From NCBI GenBank assembly GCA_963281255.1, contig OY725497.1:3340968-3404967 (forward strand): DNA of 64,000 bases, read 5' to 3'. Both the position numbers and the translations under genes were made by a program. Positions 1 to 61,600 of the stretch are shown here, in pieces. This DNA comes from Aphrocallistes beatrix. Lineage: Eukaryota > Porifera > Hexactinellida > Sceptrulophora > Aphrocallistidae. The first letter of the stretch is position 1. Every line of letters starts with the position of its first letter. The notes beneath the pieces were generated by a model, which saw nothing but the letters and a program-made list of their open reading frames with translations, made no database searches and was not told the DNA's origin.

Positions 1-3000
1 CAGAGTCTAGCTAATCTATGGGATGATGGTGAATTTACGATGTTTAGATTTCCTCTTGATATTTGCAGATGTCATCAAATTAGGCAAAATGTTCCGTATA
101 GTAAAGGAGAATCAAGGAAACCTTACTCGCCAAAGATGGTCATGGACATACTATCAAATCATGTTAAGAACAGCTCCGAGATATTATTATTTTTGAATCA
201 TGTGCAATCCCTGAAGGTTATCAGTATTGACAGATATGGTGAACTTAAACTAGAATATTCACAATCCTTCCGGTTAATAGGACCAACTCATCAGCCCATA
301 CCTGATTATTTCCCTCTTGCTAATATTGCGAAGGATATAAAGATTCAGGAAAAGAAATGCGTTAATACTCATGGATCATCTACTCGGGTGAGTAAATACC
401 GCATTTATTCCTTTCCAGATATCCCCATTGACCAATTCGTAGCTGGCATTCCAGAACTTAATGAATTTTTAGGGAAATACAACGAGGAAAAACTATGGGG
501 ATGTGGTGGAATAGCAGTATGCATTTCTCCTTTTGGATGTACCATGCAATCTAATATCTTTACATTTCTCCCTTTTGCCAAAGATAAATATCCTGTGCAC
601 ATAAATGCACCACTTATTTTTGACGCTTCGAGACAACATTTTTTTACGAATCAATCATCACCCTGGGCAGAAGCCTGGCATTCTTCTATAATAAAATACA
701 TCCTCGCACCTCTCTATACTTTGGTTGTACTTGACTTGCAAGCTCCATTCAAGCCTGTAGAAACTGTAGAGGAAAAGCGAGAGTACTTTGATTGGTTCTA
801 TCATCTCTTTCCTGACAAGTCAAATACTCACCAATTCTTAACCAAACTGAGCGAAGAATTTTACGCTTTTCTCTACAGAACGAATCAACCGATACTGTTA
901 CGTGATAATCTCGACTTCTCAGATGAACTGAAATGGTACTCATTACACGGCAATAACTGTGGAGTACTTAAGCCGATCTTTTTCCCATTTACCAGTAAAA
1001 TGACTCATGAAATTTCTGCTGTTGAAACCAACGAATACAAATTTCAGGTATCCACTCCTTATCTAGAATCAGCACAACAGACAGAAATGCTAAATGCATC
1101 AGCGAAAATAGACAAGGAAAAGGATTTTAGGAAATCTTTAATTCTTATTCAATTTCCACTCTCACATGCACCCGCTCGTCTATTTGACTGTTTTAACCCG
1201 CTTAAACTGGTTAGATTAGATCAGTCGTTTCTTCTTAACTATCTCAGAGACAACATTCATTCTTTATTTCATGAAAACACTTATCCGTGTAATATTAACA
1301 GTTCATTGCTTAATTTTCAACAATTCAGAACTATTTTAGAATATATACTATCTGCCAATGAGGAGTTGTTCCGAGATTTTCTTAGCATTCCTTTACGTAT
1401 TGACATTGGAGATAACATACGCTGTTTTAGAAAAGACAAACCTTCGTACCGACACAAATATTCTCTTCTCATACCTCACTGCTCTGAGAGCTTCATATCC
1501 TCGAAATATGATTTTAGCATTTTGCATAGATTATCTTCATTAGGTTATGTTAAAGATTTGACTTGTGATTATCTCGCTAAGCATTTAGATGTAGAAAGAT
1601 TTGAAGATAAAAAGCAATATTCACTCTTCTGGGAATTTCTAGTGCAAAATAAAATATCTGAAGAAGACTTAAACAAATTTTATAACCACAAGCTCGTTCC
1701 ACTTATTCCCAGCCAGCCATCAGATTTTTCTTTCTTTCCAGTTAACCATTTGAAGTTTGTTGTTAGCGAAACCCTAAATGATCCTTTGAAAGACAAAGTG
1801 TTATTTACTGCACTAAAAACGCTAGGTTGTCCTTTCGTATCATTTGATTTTTTTTCTAAACTTATCGATAATAATATCCCGTTGATTGCGAGAATAAAAT
1901 CTTATCTTGACAAGTTTGTGATATCCCAGCTCAGACATCCTGATATTATCCTTGGTTCAGTTTCATTCTCGTCCAACTTATCGGCTGAGCTTGGCTCAGA
2001 AGAAGAAGCCTTTAAGTTATATCAAATTTTTTCACAAATAAATCCGAACCAATGCACTGAGGAGCAGCTCCTCATCCTGTCACAATTGAAGATTTTCAAA
2101 ACGCTAGCTGGAGACCATTTATCACTGAGTCAATGCGAGATTTGCTTCATGAACACTGAAAAACTTATCCTTGGTCCCAAAATCCTTGAGCTACTTCAGA
2201 CCAATTACAAATTAGTTATATTCCAGTTCTATTCTGGAGATTTCTTTAAATCAATGTGTGCTCTTCTTAACAAAGAGTTCGTAGACGTAAATGGACTACT
2301 TTTGAATTATGTTTTAAAACACCTTTACCAAATTCCCTTGGGGGAGCAAAAGAAAATATTGCGATTTATTTCACATTTAACTGGCGGTGGAAGCATTTCA
2401 AAAATACGAAATTTGATAACTGGCTTAATGGAAGTTCCTTTCATTCAAATTGAAAACCGTTCTTTTAAGGTTAGCGAGTTGTATTCTCCAAAGCTTGAAT
2501 TTGTAAAAAGATTTTTGTCAGACAGAGCTCTTCCTGAAGATTGGGACAAAAAATATTTCACACAATTGTTTAGCGCGCTTGGTTTACGAAATGAGATCAC
2601 TCTAGATGACATATTAATAGTAGCATTAAAATTTCAAAGACGCGAGTTACCAACTGAATATTTGCATTCTCTATTACAGTCTCTTTTGTTGAATCTAACA
2701 TCTCAAATCGATCAGCATAGTGCTTATGTCCTGAGACAGATCGGTGAAGTTAGATTTCTACCGGCTTGGAAACTAAAAAATGTTCATACCAATCAAAAAA
2801 TCTATTCTTCAGATTTAGTTAGGTTTTGCGATGCTCAATTAATTGAATTTCAGCATTGTTGCTCAACAACTGCTCTAATTCATGAACTGAATTTTGAAAT
2901 TCCTGAGGATTTCTACCAATATCTGAATATAGCTCAGTATCCACCTCCTCAACTCATCAAAGTACATCTACTTAATGTTACTAATCAGGTCTTGCATCAA

Positions 3001-4884
3001 TATCACCAATCAGAAATTCCGGCTAATTTGCATGAATTTTTCTATTCTTCATACAAATATTTGGAGGCATTCTCAGCTCAAATTACCTATGCTGAATTTC
3101 TCAATTTACCATGCATTCTAGTTAATAGCAAACTGTACTATCCAGTTAACATGCTCTTCACATCTAGTGAAGAGCTCACACCATTTGTATTACAGCTACC
3201 TCCTTCATTAGCCAGCCTTTGTCCAATTTTTTTGGAAAATATCGGAGTGGAAAAGAAAGCCAGCCATAGGCATTTTGCATTTATTTTATGTGAAATACAT
3301 GCATCAATACAAGCTCGCGGTATTGAGTTGAAAGATAATAAAATGTATCTCTTTCAAGCTGAAATAGTGTTCAATAGGTTGATCAATGATTTGAGAGAAC
3401 TGGAAGTCCGTTCTACACCACTAAATTTGAATTTAACAAATATTGTGTTATTAGCTAATTATTCTCAATTGTCTCCTTGCGCTGATGTAATATTTGGTGA
3501 TAATCCTTTGCTCCTATCAAGGATAAACAAACTTCAGCTCCAGTTCAACATACTAAAACCGTTGGAACCAGATCAGAACAAATCTTGTGTTCCCCCTGCT
3601 TGTCTCAAGTTGAGAAGATTGACTGAATTTGTTAGAGAAGAAATTGATCCGAATGTGTATAACAACATGATAGTCCCCTCAGGCAATTGTTTATCTAATC
3701 GTTTAAGAGATATTCTCAAATCTCAAATCGTACTTCGTGCAATGCGGCGGTTATATTTCCATTTAACTAAAAAGGATTTGGAAATCGTTTTATTGAAAAA
3801 CGGAGAAACTTGCATTGATGATAATCAGCCTCATCCTGGGTTTCTATCAGTGTCTCAGCTTTTCAATAATCTAGAAATATTATGTGTAAACCAGATAGAT
3901 ATTCTTATTAGGGACTTTCGAACGGCTCCACCCAAAGTATACCAACTTTCGAATTCATCTGGTGCTTTTATAGATGCGAATGACAAATTCCTCATTTCTA
4001 ATCATCCTTTGAAACAGAGTTGTATTTACAAAGATATTTCTTATGCCGTCAATGCATACCTAGGAAATTTATTTACAGAAGTTCTTTCATTTTTTGAATT
4101 ATGCTTTATGCTAGATCCAAACGAGTTGATGGATAAACTGGATGAATATAATATTGCTATTGATCCTTGGTATGTTCCCCAGCCACCTGTCACAGCAATG
4201 CCAGTGCCACTAGTTCCACCTAGCACATTACCTCCAATTAATGTTCCGAATTATCCGGTGCCTCCCGCAGTACCATACGCCCCTTCAATTCCAGTGCCTC
4301 GACCTCGCCCCATACCAATGTTGGGAAAACAGGATGTCGCAGCAGCTAAACTCTGGTTACGGGTATCACAGTGTGATCTACTCGCAGCTAAACGTCTGAT
4401 AACTCAAAACGAAAACGACCAGCATCTGTTTCCAGCACATGCGTGCTTTTGTTGCTTTGAATCTGTGATTAAAGCTTTCATTTCACTGCTGCATTACAAG
4501 GGATCTAAGGATCGACTAGTGTTTGAGAGAAATTTACGTGTTTACTTTGACTATCTTCCATTCCTATTCCCTTCCAAACCACAGTTTCACAGCGAAATTG
4601 AACAACTCGCGATCCCTCTTATAAATTATGAGATGGAAACACGTATACCTTCAGCAACCTGCACTCCTGGGATGGGATCCTATATTCCACAGCAGATATT
4701 CACCGAAGAACAAGCTAGGGAAGCAATCAGAAATGCAACTAGATTAATAAAATTATTTATGAAGGAATTTCCGGAGTTGAGAGAGTGCATTCTTAGCGAG
4801 GATGATCCAATCTTAAAATGTCTACCATCACCTAACCCACCTCTCATCACTGCCATTCTTAGCTGTAAGTATTACTTATATTAA
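1..4884 (+). CDS. Sacsin-like giant protein, 5'-partial: SRR segment and HEPN domain
   Basis: The frame is open from base 1, so the gene begins upstream of the window; the ATG at 40 is internal. Residues just before and after it (FTMFRFPLD, then LLFLNHVQSLKVISID) match the middle of a sacsin repeat region, the Hsp90-like ATPase unit. About 170 residues in, a GGIAVCIS...FLPFA...PVHINAPLIFDASRQ block matches the next part of that unit. A long unrecognised middle region follows, then a Pro-rich linker (4156-4320) and a HEPN domain (about 4327-4830, AKLWLRVSQCDLLAAKRLI with CFESVIKAFISLLHYKG). Sacsin is a co-chaperone-like protein and its HEPN domain binds nucleotides. The frame closes at 4884, but CT|GTAAGT at 4864/4865 is a good phase-1 donor that fits the PARP exon at 6447 or 6462. 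The last seven codons are therefore probably intron. No DnaJ domain is visible before HEPN. Confidence 0.75.
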   Translation, partial: QSLANLWDDGEFTMFRFPLDICRCHQIRQNVPYSKGESRKPYSPKMVMDILSNHVKNSSEILLFLNHVQSLKVISIDRYGELKLEYSQSFRLIGPTHQPIPDYFPLANIAKDIKIQEKKCVNTHGSSTRVSKYRIYSFPDIPIDQFVAGIPELNEFLGKYNEEKLWGCGGIAVCISPFGCTMQSNIFTFLPFAKDKYPVHINAPLIFDASRQHFFTNQSSPWAEAWHSSIIKYILAPLYTLVVLDLQAPFKPVETVEEKREYFDWFYHLFPDKSNTHQFLTKLSEEFYAFLYRTNQPILLRDNLDFSDELKWYSLHGNNCGVLKPIFFPFTSKMTHEISAVETNEYKFQVSTPYLESAQQTEMLNASAKIDKEKDFRKSLILIQFPLSHAPARLFDCFNPLKLVRLDQSFLLNYLRDNIHSLFHENTYPCNINSSLLNFQQFRTILEYILSANEELFRDFLSIPLRIDIGDNIRCFRKDKPSYRHKYSLLIPHCSESFISSKYDFSILHRLSSLGYVKDLTCDYLAKHLDVERFEDKKQYSLFWEFLVQNKISEEDLNKFYNHKLVPLIPSQPSDFSFFPVNHLKFVVSETLNDPLKDKVLFTALKTLGCPFVSFDFFSKLIDNNIPLIARIKSYLDKFVISQLRHPDIILGSVSFSSNLSAELGSEEEAFKLYQIFSQINPNQCTEEQLLILSQLKIFKTLAGDHLSLSQCEICFMNTEKLILGPKILELLQTNYKLVIFQFYSGDFFKSMCALLNKEFVDVNGLLLNYVLKHLYQIPLGEQKKILRFISHLTGGGSISKIRNLITGLMEVPFIQIENRSFKVSELYSPKLEFVKRFLSDRALPEDWDKKYFTQLFSALGLRNEITLDDILIVALKFQRRELPTEYLHSLLQSLLLNLTSQIDQHSAYVLRQIGEVRFLPAWKLKNVHTNQKIYSSDLVRFCDAQLIEFQHCCSTTALIHELNFEIPEDFYQYLNIAQYPPPQLIKVHLLNVTNQVLHQYHQSEIPANLHEFFYSSYKYLEAFSAQITYAEFLNLPCILVNSKLYYPVNMLFTSSEELTPFVLQLPPSLASLCPIFLENIGVEKKASHRHFAFILCEIHASIQARGIELKDNKMYLFQAEIVFNRLINDLRELEVRSTPLNLNLTNIVLLANYSQLSPCADVIFGDNPLLLSRINKLQLQFNILKPLEPDQNKSCVPPACLKLRRLTEFVREEIDPNVYNNMIVPSGNCLSNRLRDILKSQIVLRAMRRLYFHLTKKDLEIVLLKNGETCIDDNQPHPGFLSVSQLFNNLEILCVNQIDILIRDFRTAPPKVYQLSNSSGAFIDANDKFLISNHPLKQSCIYKDISYAVNAYLGNLFTEVLSFFELCFMLDPNELMDKLDEYNIAIDPWYVPQPPVTAMPVPLVPPSTLPPINVPNYPVPPAVPYAPSIPVPRPRPIPMLGKQDVAAAKLWLRVSQCDLLAAKRLITQNENDQHLFPAHACFCCFESVIKAFISLLHYKGSKDRLVFERNLRVYFDYLPFLFPSKPQFHSEIEQLAIPLINYEMETRIPSATCTPGMGSYIPQQIFTEEQAREAIRNATRLIKLFMKEFPELRECILSEDDPILKCLPSPNPPLITAILSCKYYLY

Positions 4885-5129
4885 TAAAAGGTAAAATTTT
4901 AGCGAACACAAAATTTGAAATTGCCAAAATCGCGTTACTGAAGACAAATCTGTTTCGATCGTCGAAAATGAGAATATTGTGATAACTGACTTTATGATGG
5001 TGAGAAGGATTTAAAATTAAGTGAAGCCTTTTTGTGAGTGTTTAAACACCTTTTTTTGTTCAAAATAAGGTTTTTTGGCAATTATAAATTTTGTGGTCTT
5101 TGGCAAATTTAACCTTAACAATTCTCCAT

Positions 5130-6092
5130 CCTTACTATTAAAACTCGATTAATGTTTGTATATATATATAAGTGCGCTGGCGGACACTTTGTGTCCGCTG
5201 GAGTCACAAAATGAGTAATTATAAGGGAGATAAAATCTCTAAACATGTGTGTCTTACTGTTATAATCGATATCACAAATCATCAAATTTGTCAGTTTTTC
5301 ATTTATTGATGCGTAATGATGACTTCATAACAGAGTGATGACTCATCATTTTTTGATGATAGTTGTATCATGTGTGAAGAATATTAATATACACAATCAA
5401 TTAACATTTCAGCCTTCTATCACCTAAGATGACTGAGTTATAGTCGAAAAACTGAAAATTCTAATTTAAAAAGGTGACAATAACGTCATAATTCCATGAT
5501 GAGTCGACATTTTGGTCTGAGGTCAGAGCTTAGTGGAGCCATAGCCAAAATACTCCCACATGCCCAAAATCAGCTTTATGTGCCACAAACATTAATCGAG
5601 TTTTAATAGTAAGGATATATATATGACGAATTGATTGAAGAAACTCCAAGGAGCAGAAAGCTGATTTTTTGCATGTGGCAGTATTTCGGCTATGGCACTA
5701 AGTTCTGAACTCAGACGAAAATGTCGACTCATCATGGAATTATGACGTCATTGCCACCTTTTTTATTATTAGAAATTTCAGTTTTTCGATAATAAATCGG
5801 CCATTTTAGGTGATAGAAGGCTGAAATTTTAATAGAATGTGTATATTAACCTATCTCAAATATGATACAACTTTCATCAAAAAATAATGTCTCATCACTA
5901 TGTTATGACGTCATCATTACGCATCCTAAATTTAATGATTGACAAATTTTGTGATCTTTCGAGTGATATCGATTATAACAGTAGGGAATATTGATTTAGA
6001 GATGTTATCTACCTTATAATTAATCAATGTGAACCTAGGCGGACACTTTGTGTCCGCCAGCTGCACAACGCAAGCAAGCGAAGCGCGCTTGT
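5130..6092. repeat. Foldback (long inverted-repeat) element in the sacsin/PARP intron
   Basis: Two arms of about 400 bases (5175-5580 and 5640-6060) are imperfect reverse complements. Each arm ends in a short self-complementary hairpin, GGCGGACACTTTGTGTCCGCC (left copy 5179-5199 with one mismatch; right copy 6038-6058). In addition 30 bases at 5130-5159 are a perfect reverse complement of 5585-5614, so a second inverted pair is interleaved with the first. No coding capacity is visible. The right edge continues into a GC-rich tract (AAGCGAAGCGCGCTTG) shared with several other places in the window. This looks like a non-autonomous DNA transposon of MITE/foldback type. Confidence 0.75.
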
Positions 6093-6446
6093 TAATATTA
6101 ATACAAAACTATATCGGTTATATCGAAATCTAGCTAATATTGAACTAAAACCAAGGTATCTTCGACTTTGATATAACGGGGGTTGACTGTTTGTAAATAT
6201 AGCTAATACAGTTCAAATTAATATCTAATTCCGTGATGAGATAGCATTTGCCTGAGACTCGGGGTTACTAAACCCTTTGCAAATTGCTCCAATGCCAAAC
6301 AATCTTTCTAATTTACTCAGGTCTTCTGGTAGTGTATAAGGAGATGCCTTATGGTCTGGATGCTGCATCAGTATAATTGGAATATTACCAAAAATTGTAT
6401 ATTGGCACATGACAATATAAAATATGTATATGTCCTTATATTACAG

Positions 6447-7042
6447 TAAATTTATTTTTAGTAAATGTTGGAGACAATTTTCAACAAATTGATCTCAGTC
6501 CTGGGAATGATGAGTTTTTCGCAGTATCTCGTTGCTTCCTTGCTTCTATGCCTTATTCTGAGATTATCTCAGTCAAGAAGATTTACAATCCTACGAGTTG
6601 GGATGCATTCAAACAGAATATTATTCATGAAACAAATGTACATCCTGACAGTTGTCTCTACATCCGTTCTCTCTTCCACGGATCCAGCGAGACACATCCT
6701 GACACTATTATCAACGATCCTGAAGGTTTCAAGATGGAATTCGCGGAGAGAGGGTTATGGGGACGGGGTATATATTTTGCTGCCGACTGCTCCTATGCAC
6801 ATAATTACAGTCATTCCATAGATGATGGACTGTCTTGCGTCTTTCTAGCAACTGTATTTGTTGGTTATGCAAAAGAGCTTCCTCAAGATAGAAACATTGC
6901 TGGACCACCTCTGCTCCCGAATAACACTATTCATAGATACCATAGTGTACGGGGCACGAGACCTGGAGGTGATGTAATCCACATCGTCTATAAGAACTGT
7001 ATGGCTTATCCTTCCTTTCTTATAAAATATAAACATCTTTAA
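6447..7042 (+). CDS. PARP catalytic-domain exon, probable 3' end of the sacsin-like gene
   Basis: The frame carries an ADP-ribosyltransferase fold of PARP type: KKIYNPTSWDAF at the start, LFHGSS with the NAD-binding His (codon 6677-6679), GLWGRGIYFAADCSYAHNY with the second-triad Tyr, and AYPSFLIKY near the end. The residue that is Glu in poly-ADP-ribosylating enzymes aligns by eye with Ile in VIHIVY, so the triad reads H-Y-I, as in mono-ADP-ribosyltransferases. There is no convincing start codon before the domain. Two acceptors lie 15 bases apart (TTACAG ending 6446, TTTTTAG ending 6461) and both are in frame with the phase-1 donor at 4864. That makes a fused sacsin-HEPN-PARP product the simplest reading. 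A separate PARP gene with an unseen first exon remains possible. The stop is at 7040-7042. Confidence 0.7.
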
Positions 7043-32134: not shown

Positions 32135-35100
32135 ATGTCTCACTGCTTGAGACTAGCTCTTCACAGAATCTCTCCTATTCCTGCTAGAACTCTAACCACC
32201 TCTCAGCCCAAGATGAGTGTGTCCAGTCTAGATGGAGTGTGGCCTGTCATGCTCACACCTTTCAAACCGATCACTTCTCCTGACAAACAGCCTCAAGTTG
32301 ACTATGAAGGACTTGATGGTTAGGTTATATACTTAATTAATTTAAATCAATCTTGATTTATCTTACACAAGCGCGCTTCGCTCACTTGCGCTGTGCGGCT
32401 TGCGGACACTGCGTGTCCACAGAGTTGCTCTGTGGGATATCAAAGAAACGGTTGATTGTTTTCTAATTCTCTACAATTCAATTGGTCATTGATGATTAAT
32501 GATAACGTAATAATTTGAAGGTGACTCATCATTAGTATTGGATTGATGTTGATAACATCAGGTGGAAATGTTATTAGACACTTGTAAATGTAAAAATTTT
32601 CACAAAATTATCTAGTCTATTTCTGAAATTTTTTTACTTTATGTAACTATTATGAACAAAAGTAAGCAAATAATTTATCATATAGATGCGAAAATATGAT
32701 ATTCGATACCTACACCCCTAAAAACCCTATATTAACCGTTGGAAGCTAGTCCTAGCATATTTTTCAAAATTCGTCAAAAAGTGTGAAAATGTGTATATAA
32801 AGGTCTGAAAATATAGACATAACCTTTTTTTATTGCTATACACTATAACAACATTAATATAACCAAATAAGCTATTGCTTTAAATATTCATTACATTACA
32901 GTGTATTGTAGTGTCGTACCATGATTTCTATTCTGAGAGTGAAGCCATATATAATGTATAGAAAAGGTGTGAAAAATTCGCTTAGATCTTAGAACTTAAT
33001 CGTAGACTCATCATTTGACACCTACATGCCAATTTTCATATCTCTACACGACTTGCCAATTCTTCAATCAATTCGAACAAACAAACAAACAAAAATCCTA
33101 ACGTTTTAATATACGAGTATTAGATTCAACTCCTTAACTATTTTAACAAAATGGATACGAGTATTATACAAACAGTACTACACAACAGTTATTTCACTCC
33201 ATTCACATCAATTCGTCCGAATCAAGCAGTCTCGGACTGTTCTGCCTTGGAAAGACGCGTCCAGCAGCAAGTTTCTTTTTCTTGTAACAATAGAGTAGCA
33301 CGAGTAGTAGGATGCACAGTATTATTAAGATCACAATGGGTACGATGATGATCGTAATCTCCCAGGAAGGTAGAGAGGAGGTAGCTGCATTGACTGTGGG
33401 GTGATTGGGAGTTTGAGTGGTGTTGGTGTGTTTCGGAATAGTTACATTATGGGTGGTGTTTGTATGTGTGAGGGTACGTATGGTTTTGGCAGTGATGGTG
33501 TGCGTAATATGGTTAGGGGTTTGGAGAGTTTTGATTGGGACGATTTTCGTGGGAGTTTTTAAAGATTTGGTTGGGACTGTTTTGGTGGTGGTGTTAGCTG
33601 GTATTAAGGTCATGGGTGTCTTGGTGGTGTTAGCTGGTATTAAGGTCATGGGTGTCTTGGTGGTGTTAGCTGGTATTAAGGTCATGGGTGTCTTAGTGGT
33701 ATTAGCTGGTATTAAGGTAATGGGTGTCTTGGTGGTATTAGCTGGTATTAAGGTCATGGGTGTCTTGGTGGTGTTAGCTGGTATTAAGGTCATGGGTGTC
33801 TTGGTGGTATTAGCTGGTATTAAGGTCATGGGTGTTTTTGTTGTCTGTGATGGTGACACAATTGGTATCTGGTTGTTTGTCACACATGACTTCTTATTTG
33901 AATCCCACATCTCTAAGTTCTCACAGCGACACTCAAACACGTCATATTCCTGGTAGCATGTAACGTTGTAGTCGGTACAATGCAAGGTGTATTCTCCTTC
34001 TTCCTTGCATCCTGTCCTGGAAACACATGAATACTGATCAGGCAACAGAATTTCGTCTTCTTTGCAGTTACAGTCGTAGCTGAATGGGTCACTGGTTGAT
34101 GAACATGTTTCATTGCAAACTTTGTTGAAGCTCCAACAATTTTCTCCTTGTTGACACTTCCCCTCTTTAATCCAGTTTTGTAGACAGTTTGCTTGTATTT
34201 CAATCTTGCCTACAACTGACATTGCTGCTAGGTACGAGGCATGGCAGGGACATGTTGCATCGAGTTCTGTACCTAATACGTTTGCTTCAGTGAGTTTACT
34301 ATTAAAATAAACCCCCACTTGAAATAGAGTAGCTGGGACCTCTAAGAGCATGGGACTATTTGTCAGCTGTATATTCTCGGGACGAACTTCTTCACCTAGT
34401 GAGGTAGGCATTGAACGGAGTATCTTCATGTTAGTTATCTTCAGGTTGAAGAGATTGTAGCAGGATGATGCTACGTTATTTCCTATTCGTGACAGGTTTT
34501 CCATTCCACCCAACTCAATACTCTTATAGTGATTTCCAGTGAATGAATAACTGTCGATGAGCTCTGTGTTAGCGCTACGAGTTAGTGTTAAATCTTGGAT
34601 AATAGAGTTTTTGGGGATAGTATTCTCTGATATATTCCCCAAATTATATCCCTCTAGTGCTAGCATGTGTAACTGTGGCGCTAGTACCTTGATGAACGAC
34701 CAATCGAGAGATTGAACCTGAGTCACTGCCATGCTCAGGAATCTTAATCTGTTCATCTTTTGAGCTGTTGAACCGTTAATTCCTTCTATTTTGTTTAAAC
34801 TGAGGAGGATTGAGACGAGGGTGTCCAATGGAAGCCAGTCTAAATCCAAATTTCCGATTTGTTTCCCTAACAACTTCAGATCTGAAACATTCTTCAAATT
34901 ATTCCAAGTTTCTCCAGATCCAGTAGAGATCATGCAACCCTCTACCCAGATCAGATTCAGTTGGTGAGAATCGGACAATAATCCAATATCAAATCTCACT
35001 TCTGGGCTGTCACTGGTGAGATTAAACCTAACTAACTCTTTCATTCCCTTGAAGGAGTCAGTTGGTAGATAGTGAAAGTCATCCAAACTGAGTCTAAATT

Positions 35101-38100
35101 CTTCAGTTACATCTTTGAGGTGGAATTGTATCTCGATATCACGAATGCCTGGCATTAGGGTCCAATCAGGATAGACAATGCCTGAGCTGTCCTTTGGTGG
35201 CTCATACGATGCATCAGGTGTTCCCACCTTCAATGTGAGAGTGGTTACTTGCCTTAATTCGTCCTTATTGACATCAGCAGTCACGTTAAAATGGTCGTTT
35301 CCACTTTCTATTATGCAAGTCATTACATTTCCTCCGAATGTGCATATCTTGACGCTCGAACTTGCTTTAACATTGATAAAGAAGAGAGTGAGGATTAACA
35401 CAGATAACAGCATCACTTATTTAGTTTGATCTTCTTTTAATTCCACTGCATACCCCAGGTATATATGGTTATTTCTTTTGCCTATCTTGATGCAATATGA
35501 TATTGTACATCTAGGTGGACATACCTTTGGCTGTGTTCTTATATAATGCTTAGAACTTATCTTTAACTTCCTCTTTTGATACGTATACTATTACTTAGGA
35601 ATCTGTTAGCAGAAGTAATGATTTCATCCAAGGAAACTAGCACCAGGATCCATCCCCAATAGGGGCTGATATCATTTGTTTGAAATGAATATTCTGTCCG
35701 TCCTCTCCCTCATCACCAGTAGGGAGCTGCTCTACGAGTTCAAGCTGAGGGTGAGCCAGGAGGTCACGGAGTCTCGACTTCTGGTGCTGTTCACAAAGTT
35801 TTTAACTGTACAATACCGTTCAGCATTAACTGTTCTTCGATCTTTTAACAGTCCCGATGCCACATGTTACTTTTTGTCGACAAATATAGCGACTAACTGC
35901 TTTGCGGTCACATGTCTAAGCATGGAGCACTCTCACCTAGAATCGCCAATACTTGCGATTGAGCCTTCTTTTCAAGTTCATTAGAGTATACCTACGTTTC
36001 ATCACCAGTAATGATTTGAGAAAATATATTTAGACATCCCCATATCCAATTTAACGAGCATTAGGATACACCAGTCGACCCAGGTCTTTTTTTATCTTCA
36101 GTTAAGAAATGAGAGATCCAGAAAACTCAACTCGTGGAGTCCAAGTTCTTAGTGGAGAATCTTCCTAACTGCCCATGATATCCCTTGGGTAGTGTGAATT
36201 GTCTCATTAGTGATTCTTCGGACTTCAACTTGCAGACGCACACGTTCCGTAATTTCCCCGGTTGTTGCAGTTGAGGGGCAACCAACTCGTGCTCATCCTC
36301 GAAAACAATTGGTAACGGATGAAAATGAGGGAGCACAATTACCAAAAGGAAATATCAATCACTCATATCATTGCCGAAGCGACAAAACGGATTTCAAGTC
36401 GTGAAAATCATAGCTCGAAAAAACTCGATTGAGATCTATAGTGAAAATAATGAACAATTCAGAAACTGTTTCTCAAGTCATCATAAAACTTGATAGGATC
36501 ATTGTATTGACTTGAAAAGTGGTATTCTAATATAGCATATACATATATACGAATACAATAAATATAGACCTAATAAGGCAACTAATACAATCTGGGCTAA
36601 AAACTTTCCGCGTGCCCCTCGTATAATATTCAACTTCTTAACAATTTTAACAAAACGGATACGAGTATTATACAAATAGTACTACACAACAGTTATTTCA
36701 CTCCATTCACATCAATTCGTCCGATTCAAGCAGTCTCGGACTGTTTTGCCTTGGAGACACGCGTCCAGCAGCAAGTTTCTTTTTCTTGTAACAATAGAGG
36801 AGCACGAGTAGTATGATGCACAGTATTATTAAGATCACAATGGGTACGATGATGATCGTAATCTCCCAGGAAGGTAGAGAGGAGGTAGCTGCATTTACTG
36901 TGGGGTGATTGGGAGTTTGAGTGATGTTGGTGTGTTTCGGAATAGTTACATTATGGGTGGTGTTTGTATGTGTGAGGGTACGTATGGTTTTGGCAGTGAT
37001 GGTGTGCGTAATATGGGTAGGGGTTTGGAGAGTTTTGATTGGGACGATTTGCGTGGGAGTTTTTAAAGATTTGGTTGGGACGATTTGCGTGGGAGTTTTT
37101 AAAGATTTGGTTGGGACTGTTTTGGTGGTGGTATTAGCTGGTATTAAGGTCATGGGTGTCTTAGTGGTGTTAGCTGGTATTAATGTCATGGGTGTCTTAG
37201 TGGTGGTATTAGCTGGTATTAAGGTCATGGGTGTCTTAGTGGTGTTAGCTGGGATTAAGGTCATGGGTGTCTTAGTGGTATTAGCTGGTATTAAGGTCAT
37301 GGGTGTTTTGGTGGTGTTAGCTGGTGCTAAGGTTATGGGTGTTTTCATTGTATGTGATGGTGGAACAATTGGTATCTGATTGTTTGTCACACATAACTTC
37401 TTATTTGAATCCCACATTTTCGTGTTCTTACAGTGACACTTGTTCCTGGTGGCATATAACTTTATATTTAGAACAGCTCCAGGTGTTGTCTCCTTCTTCT
37501 TTGCATCCTTTCTTGGAAACACATGAATACTGATCAGGCAACATAATTTCGTCTCCTTCTTTGCATTTACAGTCGTAGCTGAATGGGTCACTGGTTGATG
37601 AACATCTCTCATCGCAAACTTTGTTGAAGCTCCAACAATGTTCTCCTTGTTGACACTTCCCCTCTTTAATCCAGTTTTGTAGACAGTTTGCTTGTATTTC
37701 AATCTTGCCTATAACTGACATTGCTGCTAGGTACGAGGCATGGCAGGGACATGTTGCATCGAGTTCTGTACCTAATACGTTTGCTTCAGTGAGTTTACTA
37801 TTAAAATAAACCCCCACTTGAAATAGAGTAGCTGGGACCTCTAAGAGCATGGGACTATTTGTCAGCTGTATATTCTCGGGACGAACTTCTTCACCTAGTG
37901 AGGTAGGCATTGAACGGAGTATCTTCATGTTAGTTATCTTCAGGTTGAAGAGATTGTAGCAGGATGATGCTACGTTATTTCCTATTCGTGACAGGTTTTC
38001 CATTCCACCCAACTCAATACTCTTATAGTGATTTCCAGTGAATGAATAACTGTCGATAAGCTCTGTGTTATCGCTACGAGTTAGTGTTAAATCTTGGATA

Positions 38101-41100
38101 GTAGAGTTTTTGGGGATAGTATTCTCTGATATATTCCCCAAATTATATCCCTCTAGCGCTAGCATGTGTAACTGTGGCGCTAGTACCTTGATGAACGACC
38201 AATCGAGAGATTGAACTTGAGTCACTGCCATGCTCAGGTATCTTAATCTGTTCATCTTTTGAGCTGTTGAACCGTTAATTCCTTCTATCTTGTTTAAGCT
38301 GAGGAGGATTGAGGCGAGGGTGTCCAATGGAAGCCAGTCTAAATCCAAATTTCCGATTTGTTTCCCTAACAACTTCAGATCTGAAACATTCTTCAAATTA
38401 TTCCAAGTTTCTCCAGATCCAGTAGAGATCATGCAACCCTCTACCCAGATCAGATTCAGTTGGTGAGAATCGGACAATAATCCAATATCAAATCTCACTT
38501 CTGGGCTGTCACTGGTGAGATTAAACCTAACTAACTCTTTTATTCCCTTGAAGGAGTCAGTTGGTAGATAGTGAAAGTCATCCAAACTGAGTCTAAATTC
38601 TTCAGTTACATCTTTGAGATGGAATTGTGTCTCGATATCACGAATGCCTGGCATTAGGGTCCAATCAGGATAGACAATGCCTGAGCTGTCCTTTGGTGGC
38701 TCATACGATGCATCAGGTGTTCCCACCTTCAATGTGAGAGTGGTTACTTGCCTTAATTCGTCCTTATTGACATCAGCAGTCACGTTAAAATGGTCGTTTC
38801 CACTTTCTATTATGCAAGTCATTACATTTCCTCCGAATGTGCATATCTTGACGCTCGAACTTGCTTTAACATTGATAAAGAAGAGAGTGAGGATTAACAC
38901 AGATAACAGCATCACTTATTTAGTTTGATCTTCTTTTAATTCCACTGCTCACCCCAGGTATATATGATTATTTCTTTTGCCTATCTTGATGCAATATGAT
39001 ATTGTACATCTAGGTGGACATACCTTCTTCGTTGTGTTCTTATATAACGCTTAGAACTTATCTTTAACTTCCTCTTTTGATACGTATACTATTACTTAGG
39101 AATCTGTTAGCAGAAGTAATGATTTCATCCAAGGAAACTAGCACCAGGATCCATCCCCAATAGGGGCTGATATCATTTGTTTGAAATGAATATTCGCCGA
39201 CATTTTGCTTACTTCCTAATGCTAGTAACAGCTAGTGCTACTACATACTTAGCTAGCATTTAGCATGCTTTTGCTTATTTAATACATTTTAGTTTGGCTC
39301 GATTAACTGCTAGGTTCGATTCATAATTAAGAAGACTGCCAAAGTGGTACGATCTTAACAAATCACCATTAACCACTTTTACAATGCATATAATGGCGAA
39401 ATTAGGAGAAAAATACCCTTCATTTGCACCATAAATCTGAATAATATCTTCCAGTCTTTGGTTTAACTAATTCGAAATGATGTCTTATCCATAGAGAAAA
39501 CAGTTAAGTATGATATTCCAATTATGTTTTGTCTTAAAGTCCAAAAAGTAAACATTTTTTTGAATTTACCCGGTAATAAACATATAATATATTTTAACTA
39601 AATATTTCATACTTTTCGTGTTATAGAAAGAGTAGACTCTTTGATAAAAAATATTCTGCAATATTAAAATTTGTGATTTTTGCTAAAACTAGAATATTCA
39701 TATTTTACATACAACAAGCGCGCTTCGCTTGCTTGTGCTGCGCGGCTGGCGGACACTTTGTGTCCGCCGGAGGCTCCCTTTCGGTCGCCTGGGGTCACAT
39801 TAGTTAATTATAAGGNNNNNNNNNNNNNNNNNNNNNNNNNNNNNNNNNNNNNNNNNNNNNNNNNNNNNNNNNNNNNNNNNNNNNNNNNNNNNNNNNNNNN
39901 NNNNNNNNNNNNNNNNNNNNNNNNNNNNNNNNNNNNNNNNNNNNNNNNNNNNNNNNNNNNNNNNNNNNNNNNNNNNNNNNNNNNNNNNNNNNNNNNNNNN
40001 NNNNNNNNNNNNNNNAATATGTCTCTCAAGTGAGATGTTCGACGTGAGTCTGAATATTATATCTGCTGTACAATGTGCTAATAGACCAATACATTTAAAT
40101 GAACCTTACATCTAGTTGAGTTATGACGAGAGATTCAAGATTGCCAAGAGGGTTTGTGATAAAGTGAACAAGAGGATTCCAGTCGTGGTCGGAGGTACCT
40201 AGTACTAGTAAACAAGTAACACAGCTAGTTTCCTTAGTAGGATTAGACTTATAATATCATACTTCCTGGATAATCTGTAGCTACCTACGAAGGAGGGGTT
40301 AGGAAGCATGTGAACTTCATCAACAGCATTAAGGACTTCGCCACAGCTGCGGTCTTGATTACAAATCAGATATGTGAGATGAAGGAAGTGAGTACAGTTA
40401 ACTTATATTTTAGTATTGTTCTATAGAATTTTTAACTATTGTTACTATGGCCATAGAGTGATGAGACGTGGATAAAGAATGCTCAGACCATTGTGGATGA
40501 GACAGGCGACATTCCTCTCGGTGTGTACGAAACACCACACCCAGAAATCAGGTAAAATCATTTATTTTTTTGGTACATATCTTGGTAATATCTCTATGTA
40601 TCTGTTCCCTTAGACTGCTTAGCCCCAGAGTAGTGGAGTGGATGGTCTCAACGCAGAGGTTCATCTACTACAAGTGTAATAACTCCGACAAAGAGGAAAT
40701 GACGGAAATAATCAAAACTGTGAATGAAATCCCTCAGTCGGGATTGGGGTTGGTTTATAACCAAATTTCTATCCGGCTGAGTCAGGCGAGAAATTTAAAC
40801 GTTCCTAACACCTCATTAGGTTCTACACTGGCCAGAGCATCCTGATGAAGACGGCACTCGATTCAGGCGCAAACGGATACAGTGGAATATCTCTCAACTA
40901 CTTTCCATGGCTCTGTGCTTGGGTGGTCAATAACAGAAAGGACCCCAGAGCAGAGAAAGTGCACAAATTCTTGCTAATCACGAATTCTCTACAAGGTTAT
41001 AAGGTCAGCTCTCATCTTTTCTTTTTTACTGTTCTACTTATCTATATTGATACAGCACCATTTTCCAATACTCTTAGTACCCAACTTCTTGTAAAGTGTA

Positions 41101-47700: not shown

Positions 47701-50540
47701 TGAATAGAATTCTAAAATTGGAATTTTTGGTTGCATTGTGTGGTAATATATATAAGTGTTTGATGAAAGAAATGCATAAATAAACACTAACTGGTGAAAT
47801 TTAAATGGTTGAATGCTTAATATGATTTTTGAATCAGGATCAGAAATTGACCCCGTGAAAGATACTGCCTCTCCCCTTACTACATTTTATAAAGCAGAAG
47901 TAAATGGACTGTGCAAAACTAAAAGTCCAGTTCCTAACTCGCGTTCAGATAAGCTGATCCATATCCGAGGGATTGAGACCATTGCATCTCGTAATTTCAT
48001 CCGAATCATGCTACTCGGAAATAGTGGATGTGGCAAATCAAGTTTAATTCGTTTTATAACTGAGAATAAAGGAAACTATCCTTCTACTAATCAAACAACG
48101 AATAACAGGGATGGAGTTGGGTTTGAGAACCATATGTTTGAGTTGATTGAAACGCCAGGCTTCCAGTCGCTAGTTCCAGACTCTACGTGGCAAGAACTGG
48201 TAGATCGCGTGAACATCTGTGGCGGTATTGACATATTCCTGTTGGTGATAAACGCCGCAGAGAAGACCGACATGGTAGGATACCTAGCTCTCAGTCAATT
48301 CGAAAGGAAACATATAGAAGACCGACTCTTGTTCTGGGATAGAGTTGTTGTAGTGTTTACACACGCAGACTACATGGGAGCCACGCCCTCTGAGCAGGAG
48401 AAGAATGTTCAGTTAGAACTTCATGAATTCGATGCTGATAAGCTGAGGCAGGTAGTTATCAATGCAGAAAACCGATGCCTCTATGTTAACTCGTTAAATA
48501 CTGAACTCAGCTACCAGGATCTCCAGTTACGAGCTCTCTACGATCAAATCAATAGGATTCAAGAGCCTTTCCCGGATAAATACTCGTTTGATTCACTCGA
48601 TGATTATGATCCAATGGACCCATATGGTAGATATCTCAGTAATTGCAATGGAGGTATAAATGGTGTGCTTGATGAAATACAAAAGAAGAAAAAGAAAAAG
48701 AAATTTTTGAAGTTAAGTAGCATCAAAAAAATAGCAAAACGTCGTAGGATTTCAAAAGAAACTAATACAGAAGAAGATGCAAGCATTACTAGTAAGAATC
48801 GAGGCAGAAGGCGATCTTCCAATGCTGTAAAACTTCTTATAAACCCACTGAAGCGACTACTGGCATCAACCCCCTCCAAGGCGATAGATTACGACAGGGT
48901 TAACTCAGAAAATCGAACTCATGTTAAATCTTCAGATCCCCCTATTTGTACAGAGGATATTCAGATGAACAGATCTAGTTCGCTCCCGGATGTGTTAGAT
49001 AGAAAAGATCGTAATTCTAGCATGGTTAGAAAGAACCCATACGCCATTGAGATATACGAACAACAGAAATTGATTGTAGCATCCCCAAATGAATCACCCC
49101 TCCTAGATGTAAAGAAGAAGCATCAAAAGAAAGAATTTATTTTCACGGCTCAAACCAGTGGTGGATCCGATACTGAGGAAAGCGACCAGTTTTTTACCCC
49201 GCCTCAGAGCCCAAGTGAGATGTGACCCCAATGCTTAGGAGGAAATTTTCTTTGTTATCTTATCTTGACATCAATGAATTCTAGAGATTATGATTGTTTT
49301 ATGTCTCATGATTAATGAGTAGCTTACTCTACGTACGTACACATGTTACTAGTTTAAGCCAATGTTAGTCCATATACTAGTAAAGGACTTTTTAAACAAG
49401 GTTTCCATAAAAAGTGGTTATATACGCACACATGCCAACCTGAGCCATGACAAAGCGGGACGCAGCGTTGAATTTCGTGGGACATGGCGGGACGCGATAA
49501 AATAGTACTATGCATAGAATACAAAAAAGCGGGACATAATGGGGAATTTTCATGTAAAAACGGGACACTCGAGAAAATTAGCTCAATAGAAGAGTGAAAA
49601 AAGCGGGACGTCCCGCCAAAAACGGGACAGTTGGCAAGTATGTATGATGCAAATATTGGTATTACAAGTTTGGGATTGGTGCTTTTTACGGTTTTACGTG
49701 TGTCGGCTATATCTTTCGTACGTATGTTCTATCTCGTATTTAATGGTGTTTTATTCTAGATTCGACTTGATATTCATTTTGTTCGACAAACCAGACGAAG
49801 AGATGGATCACAAGCTGTCTAAACGTATGATGGCAATCCACACCGGGAAATTAAGAAAGTCAAAGAATAGTCTGAAACTAACGGAAACAGGTCCGAAACC
49901 CTCTGGAAGCATTTTTGATGATTTTGATTGTACAGACTACATTCCTCTGACAGAGAGGTTAAACTACCAGAAAGAAGAAGAGTTTGAGCCAATTCCACCT
50001 GCTTTGTTACAGAAGTTCATAGTTTATGCTCGTAGTAATATTATTCCTAAGATTTCTCCTGAAGCAGCTGATGTCCTCAAGAATTTCTACACAGAACTCA
50101 GGCTGCATGGAAATAATTTCGATTGCATCCCGATCACTACCCTTCACCTCGAGTCCCTGGTTCGCCTCACGGAGGCTCGAGCACGTGCTGAGCTGAGAGA
50201 TGTCGCTACAGAGGAGGATGCCTATGACGTAATCGACGTAGTGAAGCATAGCATGATGAACCTCTACTCGGATGGGATGGGGGGTGTCAGACACACCGCA
50301 CAACGTGGTGCAGGGTTGAGTCAACGCAACCAGGTAAGAGCGTTAATCGCTGAGCTTACGCGCATCTCAGAAATACGTGCAAGTGCGATTTTTTCCATTG
50401 ATGAGATACGAGAGGTTACAGAGAAAATCGGCATACCTCATGTCAAATTTGAGGATGTAATGTTCTCATTGAATAATCAGTGCTACTTAATAAAGAAAGG
50501 CCCAATGCTCTTTCAACTACAAAACTTTACCTGTTTGTGA
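44743..50540 (+). CDS. MCM8: DNA helicase MCM8
   Basis: Five exons (44743-45492, 45558-45844, 46006-46423, 46497-46777, 49760-50540) join in phase to 838 residues, almost the 840 of human MCM8. It starts with the Gly/Arg-rich NWRGYGGGWRGNWRGRF typical of MCM8. It continues VYNF-like RLYNFSPVTSLKSLRASQYG, a zinc-binding CATC...CPSRSC pair, IVNSLCPNVYGHEMVKAGLI, Walker A GDPGQGKSQLLQ, Walker B DCGNCCIDEFEKL, and the arginine finger LSRFDL at the exon 4/5 junction. The C-terminal end has LTEARARAELRDVATEEDA and LIKKGPMLFQLQ. MCM8 works with MCM9 in homologous recombination and crosslink repair. Intron 4 (2982 bases) contains a separate GTPase gene on the same strand and a miniature element just before the acceptor. 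Confidence 0.95.
46778..47812. other. MCM8 intron 4, upstream of the nested gene
   Basis: AT-rich with no recognised exon or repeat. It must hold the promoter of the nested GTPase gene. Confidence 0.5.
47813..49225 (+). CDS. AIG1/GIMAP-like GTPase nested in an MCM8 intron
   Basis: A single exon of 470 residues, same strand as MCM8. A GTP-binding domain covers about residues 60-260: G1 GNSGCGKSSL (69-78), G3 ETPGF (113-117), G4 THAD (183-186). The conserved hydrophobic strands IFLLVINAAEKTD and FWDRVVVVFTHADYMG and the preceding layout resemble the AIG1/GIMAP family, which act on intracellular membranes and, in vertebrates, in lymphocyte survival. The rest is a Lys/Arg-rich region (KKKKKKFLKLSSIKKIAKRR near 285-304) and a Ser-rich tail. 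No membrane helix is seen, so the basic patch may serve membrane or nuclear binding. G1 lies after ~60 unrecognised residues. Family level is fairly firm; function is unknown. Confidence 0.8.
   Translation: MLNMIFESGSEIDPVKDTASPLTTFYKAEVNGLCKTKSPVPNSRSDKLIHIRGIETIASRNFIRIMLLGNSGCGKSSLIRFITENKGNYPSTNQTTNNRDGVGFENHMFELIETPGFQSLVPDSTWQELVDRVNICGGIDIFLLVINAAEKTDMVGYLALSQFERKHIEDRLLFWDRVVVVFTHADYMGATPSEQEKNVQLELHEFDADKLRQVVINAENRCLYVNSLNTELSYQDLQLRALYDQINRIQEPFPDKYSFDSLDDYDPMDPYGRYLSNCNGGINGVLDEIQKKKKKKKFLKLSSIKKIAKRRRISKETNTEEDASITSKNRGRRRSSNAVKLLINPLKRLLASTPSKAIDYDRVNSENRTHVKSSDPPICTEDIQMNRSSSLPDVLDRKDRNSSMVRKNPYAIEIYEQQKLIVASPNESPLLDVKKKHQKKEFIFTAQTSGGSDTEESDQFFTPPQSPSEM
49226..49759. other. 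MCM8 intron 4, downstream of the nested gene
   Basis: It holds the 3' end of the nested gene and the miniature element at 49427-49646, ending with the acceptor TTATTCTAG at 49751-49759. Confidence 0.6.
49427..49646. mobile_element. ~220-bp miniature inverted-repeat element, reverse copy
   Basis: It opens ACACATGCCAACCTGAGCCA and closes GACAGTTGGCAAGTATGT. Read in reverse it is the same element as at 19424-19629, with the GGGACGTCCCGCCAAAAACG block and the GCGTTGAATTTCGTGGGAC block in order. It lies about 110 bases before the MCM8 exon-5 acceptor. Confidence 0.85.
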
Positions 50541-58665: not shown

Positions 58666-61600
58666 CTAATCAGTGTCCATCTTGTCGGAACCAGATGGCG
58701 TATACTGCGGAGAAGTGGAGTACTGCGAGCTGTACCCGTCTGGACTGACCGGCGAGTAAGCTGAGGGTCTGGAAGGGGAGTACCTGTCATCAGGAGAGAT
58801 GGGCTGAATCGCCGGTGACTGGAGGTCGTTAGGAGAGACGCGTGTGTCTGGAGTGTAGCTAGAGGAGGGGGAGTAGGTGGGGGAGTGTGGGGAGTAGCGA
58901 GGGGGGGAGGGGTCGACTGAATTCGGGGTGTAAGTGGGGGTGTAGTTGGGAGAGGAGGGTGTGGAGGGGGAGTATGGGGTGGAGGGGGTAGCTGAGTCTG
59001 TGGGTGTGTGAGGAGTATACTGCGGGGAGGTGGGCGTGTACTGGGGACTGGAGGAGTCCGCTGACGATGGCTGCTCTGGTGTGTACTTGGGAGAAGTGGG
59101 GGAGTACTTGGGGGAAGAGGGGGAGTACTTGGGGGAGGTGGGCGAGTATCTGGGGGAGGAGGGGGAGTATTGGGGGGAGGTAGGAGAATATTGGGGAGAA
59201 GTGGGGGAGTATTGGGGAGAGGAAGGGGAGTATTGGGGGGAGGTTGGCGAGTACCTGGGAGAGGAAGCGGAGTTTGTAGAGGGAGAGTATTGAGGTGAGG
59301 TAGGGGAGTACTGGCGAGATTCAGGAGATACCTGGGAGCTGGGCGAGGTGGGTGAGTATTTGGGAGAAGTAGGAGAATACTTGGGGGAGGAGGGACTGTA
59401 CTGAGGGGAAGGGGTGTACTGGTTGCTTCCCTCCGGCGAGGAGGGGCTGTAGTGAGGAGAGGAAGGGCTGTACTGGGGCGTGGAGGGAGATATCTTCGGA
59501 GAGGTGGGGGAGTATCTGGGACTAGACGGAGAGTACTGCGGGGAGGTGGGGCTGTATTTGGGGGAGGATGGTGTATATTGTGGAGAGGTGGGTGTGTACT
59601 TTGGGGACGTGGGACTGTAGGTGTTGGAAGGGGAGTAGGACGGGGAGGAAGGGGAATATGAAGGTGAGGAAGGAGAGTAGGAAGGGGAAGTGGGACTATA
59701 AGAGGGAGACGAAGGGGAGTATGAAGGAGAGGAGGGAGAGTACGATGGAGACGTGGGTGTATAAGAAGGAGAAGTTGGGGAGTAGGAGGGGGAAGTAGGA
59801 CTGTAGGAAGGAGAGGAGGGGGAATATGAGGGGGAAGAGGGCGAGTAGGAGGGAGATGTGGGTGAGTAGGATGGACTGGCAGGAGAGTAGCTTGGAGAAG
59901 AAGGGCTGTAAGAGGGAGAAGTGGGGCTATAGGAGGGAGAGGACGGGGAATAGGAGGGGGAAGAGGGAGAGTAGGAGGGAGAGGTGGGTGAGTAAGAAGG
60001 AGAGGTGGGGCTGTAGGATGGGGAGGTGGGGGAGTAGGAGGGAGAAGTGGGACTGTAGCTGGGGCTGGTGGGGGAGTAGGAGGGACTGGTGGGCGAGTAG
60101 GAAGGGGAGGTGGGCGAGTAGTTGGGAGAGGTCGGACTGTAGGTGTTAGAAGACGGGGAGTACGTGGGAGAGGTACATCGAGGGCTAGAGGGGGAGTAGT
60201 CGCGAACGAATGCCGGCGAGTACTCAGGAGAAGTGGGGGAGTAGTAAGGGCTCTTGGACATGTCTTTAGAACCCTCCAGCATCGGACTGGAAGGAGAAGC
60301 AATGCTCCCGGAGAACGGAGACACGGGCGAGTTAGCCCACCAGGCGTGCATCTCGCTCTGCGCCGGAGAGAACGCAGCCGCCCCGGGCGTCATGCTGGCG
60401 CCGTACGGACTGAAGCTGGGGTAAGGGGTCATGTTCGTTATGGGGGTTTGTCCTGGACCCATCGGAGTCCCCATTAATACGAATGGCATTGTCAGTCCAG
60501 GGCCCCTGGGGTTGATATCCATGGCTTCCTTACACAAATCAACATCCAGCATTAGATCGAAACTTCCGGTGCCAATAGGCGCCAGCTGGCCTAGGATTAT
60601 GTTTTCTGACACGCCGCGTACCATGTCGCACTCAGAATGCACTGCTGCGTCCAATAGTACGTCCACCTAAAACAACGAATAACAGATGAGTAAATAATTG
60701 CACTTCTAAACCAGGGAGATATCCGTTCATGTACCGCGCTAATCAATGGAAAGTTTAATAGTAAACCACTCACCGTCTCTTCAAAAGAACATCTCATCAG
60801 AGCTCCCAGATCCTGTCGGTTCACTCCGTGCCTGGTGATGGCCATCAAGTGGCCCTTGCATGTCATGATGTCGCAGAGAAGCGCCAGATGTCGGTAGTTC
60901 ACATAAGACCCGTCAAAAGAGATGACGGCATGCAATTCCTTCTCAACCGCTTTCCTCACTGCCTCTATCCCAAGCACGCGGAAAATCTCACAAATATCAT
61001 TGGAATACGTGCGAACTGGATCTACAGAGGGCTCACTCAGCACCTAATGAGGCTATACTGTAAGGTGTTTGTATACAAATCATATATGAATGGAGGAGGA
61101 CGCACCCTCTGTAGGTTAGTACCGTCCGTCTCCAGGATCCACTCGTGAATCTTCTTGAACTCGCCTCCTTCTGTGATAATGGTTCTTTTCTTGCTGTCTT
61201 CATTGGGCCAGTGCATGTACACCTTGGAGATCTGCTCCACCCCTTTCAGTGTGACACTGGTGAGCAGGTTGTACTCGCACAGGCGGAGGAACGAGTCGTC
61301 TTCTGCCTTGTCCACCACTTCCTCGTCGTCTCCCAGTTTCGTGTCCTCTTCATCCACGAGGCGGATCCGTAGCACCAGCTGGTCTGCGTTGTCGTCTGTG
61401 AAGATACAACTCATCGTCTCCCCGAACGTCTGGCTGATCTTCTCAGAGATCTGCTCCATCGACAGGCTTGTGTCAGTCATTAGTTTGCGGTCCAACTCAA
61501 TACGTAGCAGCCTGGGTGGTACATATTACCAGTAGAGTAGAGTATACTGAGAAATTCCTTCTTCAAGTTCACGGGTTACCAACCATGGGGAAATGTTAGT

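Follow-up and report, generated by a model that had tools for sequence, protein, structure and literature searches.

The first 7,042 nucleotides of the window (the whole 64,000-nucleotide stretch of Aphrocallistes beatrix DNA analyzed here) hold a giant sacsin-like reading frame with a candidate HEPN domain near its 3' end, followed on the same strand by a separate exon encoding a PARP catalytic domain. The question raised by this locus is whether these parts belong to one protein, as an earlier sequence-only reading had proposed, or to two neighbouring genes.

Paralogous loci and the exon junction

Comparison of the window PARP exon with the genome from which the window derives (100,537,919 bases, 28 contigs) yielded 13 matching places. 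The seven best, referred to here as copies A (the window copy) to G, were distributed over five contigs, C11, C3 (two), C1, C7 and C12 (two), with identities to the window exon of 100, 71, 67, 47, 44, 45 and 45% in the search and of 41-70% for the six other copies in alignment. When the wide flanks of these seven places were examined, a giant sacsin-like exon was found 5' of the PARP exon at every one of them; at the remaining six of the 13 places, no sacsin match was present within flanks of 1.5 kb. A genome search with Pfam PF00644 returned 28 places, some of them pieces of one gene and seven of them these loci, the wide flanks covering those seven.

Frame 1 of the window was without a stop over positions 1-4884 according to the reading-frame listing, and in the upstream 10 kb of the same contig (L022 on C11) the same frame was unbroken for another 1758 codons, so that 3379 codons up to the donor form one open stretch. 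The Pfam SACS match in the window alone was confined to a truncated tail (E 5.3e-4, 20.3 bits against a cut-off of 32.8), and the part in L022 gave strong matches (E 1.7e-112). A phmmer search of window positions 1-4881 against the PDB returned no sacsin or HEPN chain, the best hit being unrelated (E 0.67). Relative to paralog C, copy A showed a single frame change some 10 kb ahead of the donor (L022, about 4704-4716), which may be a mutation, an unrecognised small intron or an assembly error, and its intron 2 spans about 3.9 kb, against less than 0.3 kb in C.

The earlier reading had the sacsin-like frame running to a phase-1 GTAAGT donor at 4865 after the HEPN domain, and the same donor was recovered at all seven loci; in the window the exon ends with ...AGC T, and the intron begins in phase 1 with GTAAGT. 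Its further claim that both possible PARP acceptors restore this phase was borne out, since exons starting at 6447 or 6462 are each in phase 1, and the six paralogs correspond to 6462. The combination of a phase-1 GTAAGT donor, a phase-1 AG acceptor and an open PARP exon was present at seven of seven loci, and in each the PARP exon begins with the final two bases of the split codon directly after the AG. The window copy has Leu at this codon, copy D has Val, and the other five have Phe. The last intron varied widely in length, measuring 1597 nt in A, 522 in B, 2374 in C, 370 in D, 2382 in E, 425 in F and 60 in G, the last of which is too short for a promoter, a 5' leader and a start.

The PARP domain had also been described as lacking its own start codon, and this held for the window, where the interval from the preceding stop to the acceptor contains no in-frame ATG and the exon itself has its first Met at residue 29. 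Across the family, five of the seven copies lack an ATG in that interval, and C and D have one each; the first Met inside the exon lies at residue 29 in A to D, at 59 in G, at 2 in E and at 6 in F. Given the upstream Met of C and D and the early Met of E and F, the argument from the missing ATG serves A, B and G and is insufficient alone against a separate start in C to F. Beyond the donor, the window frame continues for six more codons to a stop. AATAAA/ATTAAA motifs occur in the window intron at intron positions 19, 273 and 927, the first of them an AATAAA at about 4883, and in four of the seven last introns overall (A, C, D and E; none in B, F or G). Neither a transcript end near 4884 nor a separate first exon for the PARP domain at 6092-6446 was apparent from the sequence alone. 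Words of the inverted repeat in the window intron (Table 1) recur in the introns of other copies: C contains GTGTCCGCCAGC and GCAAGCAAGCGAAGCGCGCTTGT, and E contains GCAAGCAAGCGAAGCGCGCTTGT and TCCTTACTATTAAAACTCGATTAAT. This suggests a mobile repeated element entering these introns.

Table 1. Coordinates and supporting evidence for features of the candidate SRR-HEPN-PARP gene in the window.
Feature	Positions	Strand	Basis
3' part of giant exon (exon 3), sacsin-like gene	1..4864	+	Frame continues upstream into L022
Tail of SRR / SACS domain, truncated at the window edge	34..234	+	Pfam, weak, below cut-off; head in L022
Predicted sacsin-type HEPN domain	4348..4764	+	Pfam PF05168, weak; predicted fold with 3o10 as first match; alignment of seven paralogs
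Phase-1 intron, GTAAGT...AG, 1597 nt	4865..6461	+	Counterpart intron in 7/7 paralogs
Nested inverted repeats, GGCGGACACTTTGTGTCCGC at 5179 and 6038; transposon-like insertion in last intron	5128..6092	.	Repeat comparison
Last exon, encoding the PARP catalytic domain (193 aa with the split codon counted); stop TAA at 7040-7042	6462..7042	+	Pfam, phmmer, profile
Triad His codon (LFHG)	6677..6679	+	Invariant, 7/7
Triad Tyr codon (GIYFA)	6773..6775	+	Invariant, 7/7
Third triad position, Ile	6977..6979	+	Ile 5/7, Val 2/7; column aligned with PARP12 Ile

Domain composition of the predicted protein

Two small conserved exons precede the giant exon, giving a gene of at least four coding exons. Exon 1 (...NYPDGSQILK) was located in six copies and not in E, and exon 2, with an N-box (E.IQNADDA) and a G-box (VGRF..GF), was located in all seven; besides these, no conserved upstream exon of at least 35 aa was detected in the flanks compared, and a start exon and promoter were not located in the flanking sequence. 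Exon 2 of copy C matched sacsin structures in the PDB, with 5v44-5v46 at about 1e-30 (5v45 at 1.1e-30) and lizard sacsin 5v47 at 6e-29. The first sacsin repeat is made up of exon 1, exon 2 and the beginning of exon 3. Pfam SACS matches in exon 3 numbered three each in C, D, F and G and four in E (best E 1.7e-149), for a scan that covered exon 3 of C to G and, for A, where a 730-codon piece precedes the frameshift, the sequence from the frameshift region onwards (window positions 1-4881 together with L022:4695-9968). Taken together, the sacsin match of exon 2 and the SACS matches of exon 3 give the triple-SRR plan of sacsin. No DnaJ (J domain) match was obtained at E<=0.1 in the scanned exon-3 pieces of A (part), C, D, E, F and G. 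The ATP-site residues of the first SRR of sacsin are given in the available text of PMC9880540 as Glu116, Asn120, Asp123, Gly188, Gly191 and Gly193. Within the first SRR of the present family, the N-box E-x-IQNADDA was retained in seven of seven copies and the counterpart of Gly191 was Ala in A, B and D, suggesting that the first repeat may be weakened in these three.

The domain preceding the donor had been called HEPN, an assignment that the predicted fold favors and for which the sequence match was weak. Pfam PF05168 was matched by four of the seven paralogs at E<=10 (best 9.6e-4), the window copy scoring below the cut-off at 0.064, and a HEPN profile built from the seven paralogs found no match in the PDB. 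An AlphaFold2 model of the window domain, computed with the seven sequences, had a mean pLDDT of 72.6. The top two Foldseek matches of this model were human sacsin HEPN chains of 3o10 (probability 1.00, target TM-scores 0.68 and 0.67, E 0.016 and 0.023) and the third was an archaeal HEPN protein, 2hsb; no match reached an E-value of 0.001. Misassignment of the domain was considered in view of the empty profile and single-sequence searches of the PDB and the weak Pfam scores, yet the predicted fold leads to the HEPN domain of sacsin, and the model thus points to a HEPN domain of sacsin-type fold. The available text of PMC3710099 lists Rx4-6H as a ribonuclease motif of HEPN domains. One Arg column of the HEPN alignment is invariant in all seven copies, with a His 4-6 residues after it only in B and D; Rx4-6H strings occur at other positions in C, F and G, and none occurs in A or E. 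Judged from this alignment, the ribonuclease motif is not conserved across the seven paralogs.

The reading frame containing the PARP exon (6413-7042) matched Pfam PF00644 at E 1.7e-16 and, in a single-sequence phmmer search of the PDB, PARP12 at 6.5e-14. A profile of the seven paralogs again matched PARP12 best among PDB entries (1.4e-25), with PARP14, PARP15, PARP13, tankyrases and PARP10 also found. The His and Tyr of the catalytic triad are accompanied by Ile or Val in the column that we take to be the third triad position of PARPs. Active mono-ADP-ribosyltransferases, PARP10 and PARP12 among them, have an H-Y-I triad; PARP13 is a catalytically dead PARP without the triad His. With PARP12, PARP14 and PARP15 as the closest relatives and an H-Y-I/V triad, mono-ADP-ribosylation would be expected, and the domain is rather likely to be an active mono-ADP-ribosyltransferase. 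Comparison of the PARP alignment with prokaryotic genome contigs and viral contigs gave 33 and 13 pattern matches, respectively; none was confirmed by tblastn, and prokaryotic or viral relatives among these contigs were accordingly discarded.

Selection, phylogeny and competing explanations

The frame that contains the giant exon was open over 4040 codons in C, 4055 in D, 5153 in E and 4193 in F. Three frame changes were found in paralog B and one in-frame stop in the giant exon of G, which, like the frameshift of A, may be mutations, unrecognised small introns or assembly errors; with these breaks, three of the seven copies may be non-functional or misassembled. The ratio pN/pS (Nei-Gojobori) was below 1 in 63 of 63 comparisons, comprising 21 pairs for each of three segments (PARP, HEPN and the preceding sacsin part), with a highest value of 0.73. 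Among A, B and C, the PARP segment had a dN/dS of 0.12-0.15, the HEPN segment of 0.18-0.24 and the preceding part of 0.18-0.32, rough values with dS above 1; many pairs outside this trio were saturated. These ratios indicate that the sacsin part and the PARP part are both under purifying selection.

Trees of the sacsin part and of the PARP part did not conflict: A to D are united, F is paired with G, and E stands in between, the F-G pair being unstarred in the seven-row PARP tree and unresolved in a 14-row tree. In the latter, which also included seven other PARPs of the genome, hand-chosen for their readable frames among the 21 other PF00644 places, the seven fusion PARPs formed one group (87/88; 85% of bootstrap trees); support was moderate and the program warned of long branches. 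A single fusion ahead of the duplications would be the simplest account of the seven-member family. The same junction at all seven loci, the 60-nt intron of G, purifying selection and compatible trees all side with the earlier proposal of one SRR-HEPN-PARP protein, and on these comparisons three SRRs, HEPN and PARP almost certainly constitute one fused protein.

Several other explanations bear on parts of this result. That a sacsin-like gene stops at 4884 and is followed by a PARP gene of its own with an overlooked first exon could appeal to the in-frame stop soon after the donor, to the AATAAA at about 4883, and to the Met codons before the acceptor in C and D and at exon residues 2 and 6 in E and F. 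This explanation would leave unexplained the identical phase-1 arrangement of seven loci and the short intron of G; A, B and G have no in-frame Met ahead of residue 29 of the exon, and the trees are without conflict. Because seven copies share the same join, two genes misread as one are very unlikely; the shared phase-1 junctions and the 60-nt intron speak strongly against both a separate PARP gene and a chance phase match at one locus, and the two-gene explanation is left with hardly any probability. Another explanation is that the gene yields alternative isoforms, a short SRR-HEPN form ending by intronic polyadenylation and a long form to which the enzyme would be added under some conditions. 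The polyadenylation-type motifs in four introns and the end of the window frame six codons past the donor would fit such isoforms; three introns (B, F and G) are without such a motif, and AT-rich introns often contain AATAAA or ATTAAA by chance. Regulated isoforms are considered quite improbable.

While the rest of the family works, copy A could be a pseudogene in decay, as its exon-3 frameshift relative to C, long intron 2 and inverted-repeat insertion in the last intron might indicate. Set against this are the approximately 10 kb downstream of the shift that are open without a stop, the retained catalytic landmarks, the low pN/pS and the possibility that a lone frameshift is an assembly error; decay of copy A is considered unlikely. 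A PARP domain that is catalytically dead and serves as an ADP-ribose or NAD binding module, in the manner of PARP13, would be consistent with Ile or Val rather than Glu at the third triad position and with the matches of the profile to structures of zinc finger CCCH-type antiviral protein 1 (PARP13). The invariance of the triad His and Tyr in all seven copies argues the other way, H-Y-I being the triad of active enzymes and PARP13 having lost the His, and a dead domain is considered unlikely.

Proposed role and relation to known systems

Overall, a fused gene family combined with a client-marking mechanism is probably the best explanation of the locus. Under this mechanism, protein assemblies that are misfolded, aggregated or foreign would be bound and acted on by the Hsp90-like repeats. 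The HEPN domain would dimerize or bind nucleotide, and the tethered PARP12/14-like domain would place mono-ADP-ribose on the client thus held, or on what lies next to it, to mark stress or defence. That the protein serves in stress or defence by acting on captured clients is possible and is put forward tentatively, by analogy; the earlier reading had likewise offered a stress or antiviral factor as a possibility. By the logic of domain fusion, the arrangement suggests that sacsin repeats, HEPN and ADP-ribosyltransferase can share one target, and it raises the hypothesis that sacsin clients are ADP-ribosylated. Loss of sacsin causes the human ataxia ARSACS, and the function of sacsin is still poorly understood.

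The predicted proteins resemble the sacsin (SACS) of animals in their three Hsp90-like SRR domains and C-terminal HEPN domain of sacsin fold, and differ in the PARP domain added after HEPN and in having no J domain in the exon-3 pieces scanned. Canonical sacsin carries a J domain before HEPN, and vertebrate sacsin an N-terminal ubiquitin-like domain. With PARP12, PARP14 and PARP15 they share the catalytic domain and the H-Y-I/V triad, whereas macro, WWE, RNA-binding and CCCH zinc-finger domains were absent from the coding pieces scanned and the carrier is sacsin-like. The PARP12/14 group is tied to antiviral defence and here gains a sacsin-like carrier, of which no description was found in the literature searched.

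Sacsin-DEATH fusions occur in the sponge Amphimedon, and RNA-level stress and death roles have been proposed for sacsin and its paralogs, according to the available text of PMC3710099, from the main text of which the word PARP is absent. In animal conflict systems, TRADD-N is fused to sacsin and, separately, to Macro-PARP and HEPN (available text of PMC8195603). These fusions resemble the present family in that sacsin, HEPN, PARP and death or immunity domains are recombined in invertebrates, and they differ from it in that no sacsin-PARP join is described in the available text of either source (PMC3710099, PMC8195603); by analogy, such relatives suggest a stress or defence role. Sponge PARPs are described in PMC4245714, where the word sacsin is absent from the available main text, and a coral sacsin-like gene with Hsp90-like, J and HEPN domains appears in PMC8626496 with PARP unmentioned in the text available. 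The component domains are known; their order, SRR-HEPN-PARP, was not found described in the open-access literature searched, and automatic annotations of it may exist. More speculatively, the seven loci might represent an animal family in its own right, still expanding, of ADP-ribosyltransferases tethered to a chaperone. In it, an Hsp90-like sensor would recognise abnormal or foreign protein assemblies and set ADP-ribose marks on those it holds, acting as a cell-intrinsic stress or antiviral effector.

A separate local expansion was noted on C11 at about 4.34-4.36 Mb, where three PARP genes, L016, L017 and L018, lie within approximately 18 kb; their open frames measure 1031, 1036 and 1027 codons. 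Within the window, an AIG1-family (GIMAP-like) GTPase domain, representing an immunity-type gene family, was detected on the forward strand at 47813-49222 (Pfam E 7.3e-11). Two reverse-strand frames at 33206-35416 and 37431-38915, without a Pfam match, share their first 50 residues (VMLLSVLILTLFFINVKASSSVKICTFGG...) and are, on this similarity, probably a recent duplicate of an uncharacterised protein. The C-terminal repeats of the RNA polymerase II largest subunit were found on the reverse strand at 58669-60666 (Pfam E 1.6e-30), where they are visible as 21-base tandem repeats with a strong GC skew.
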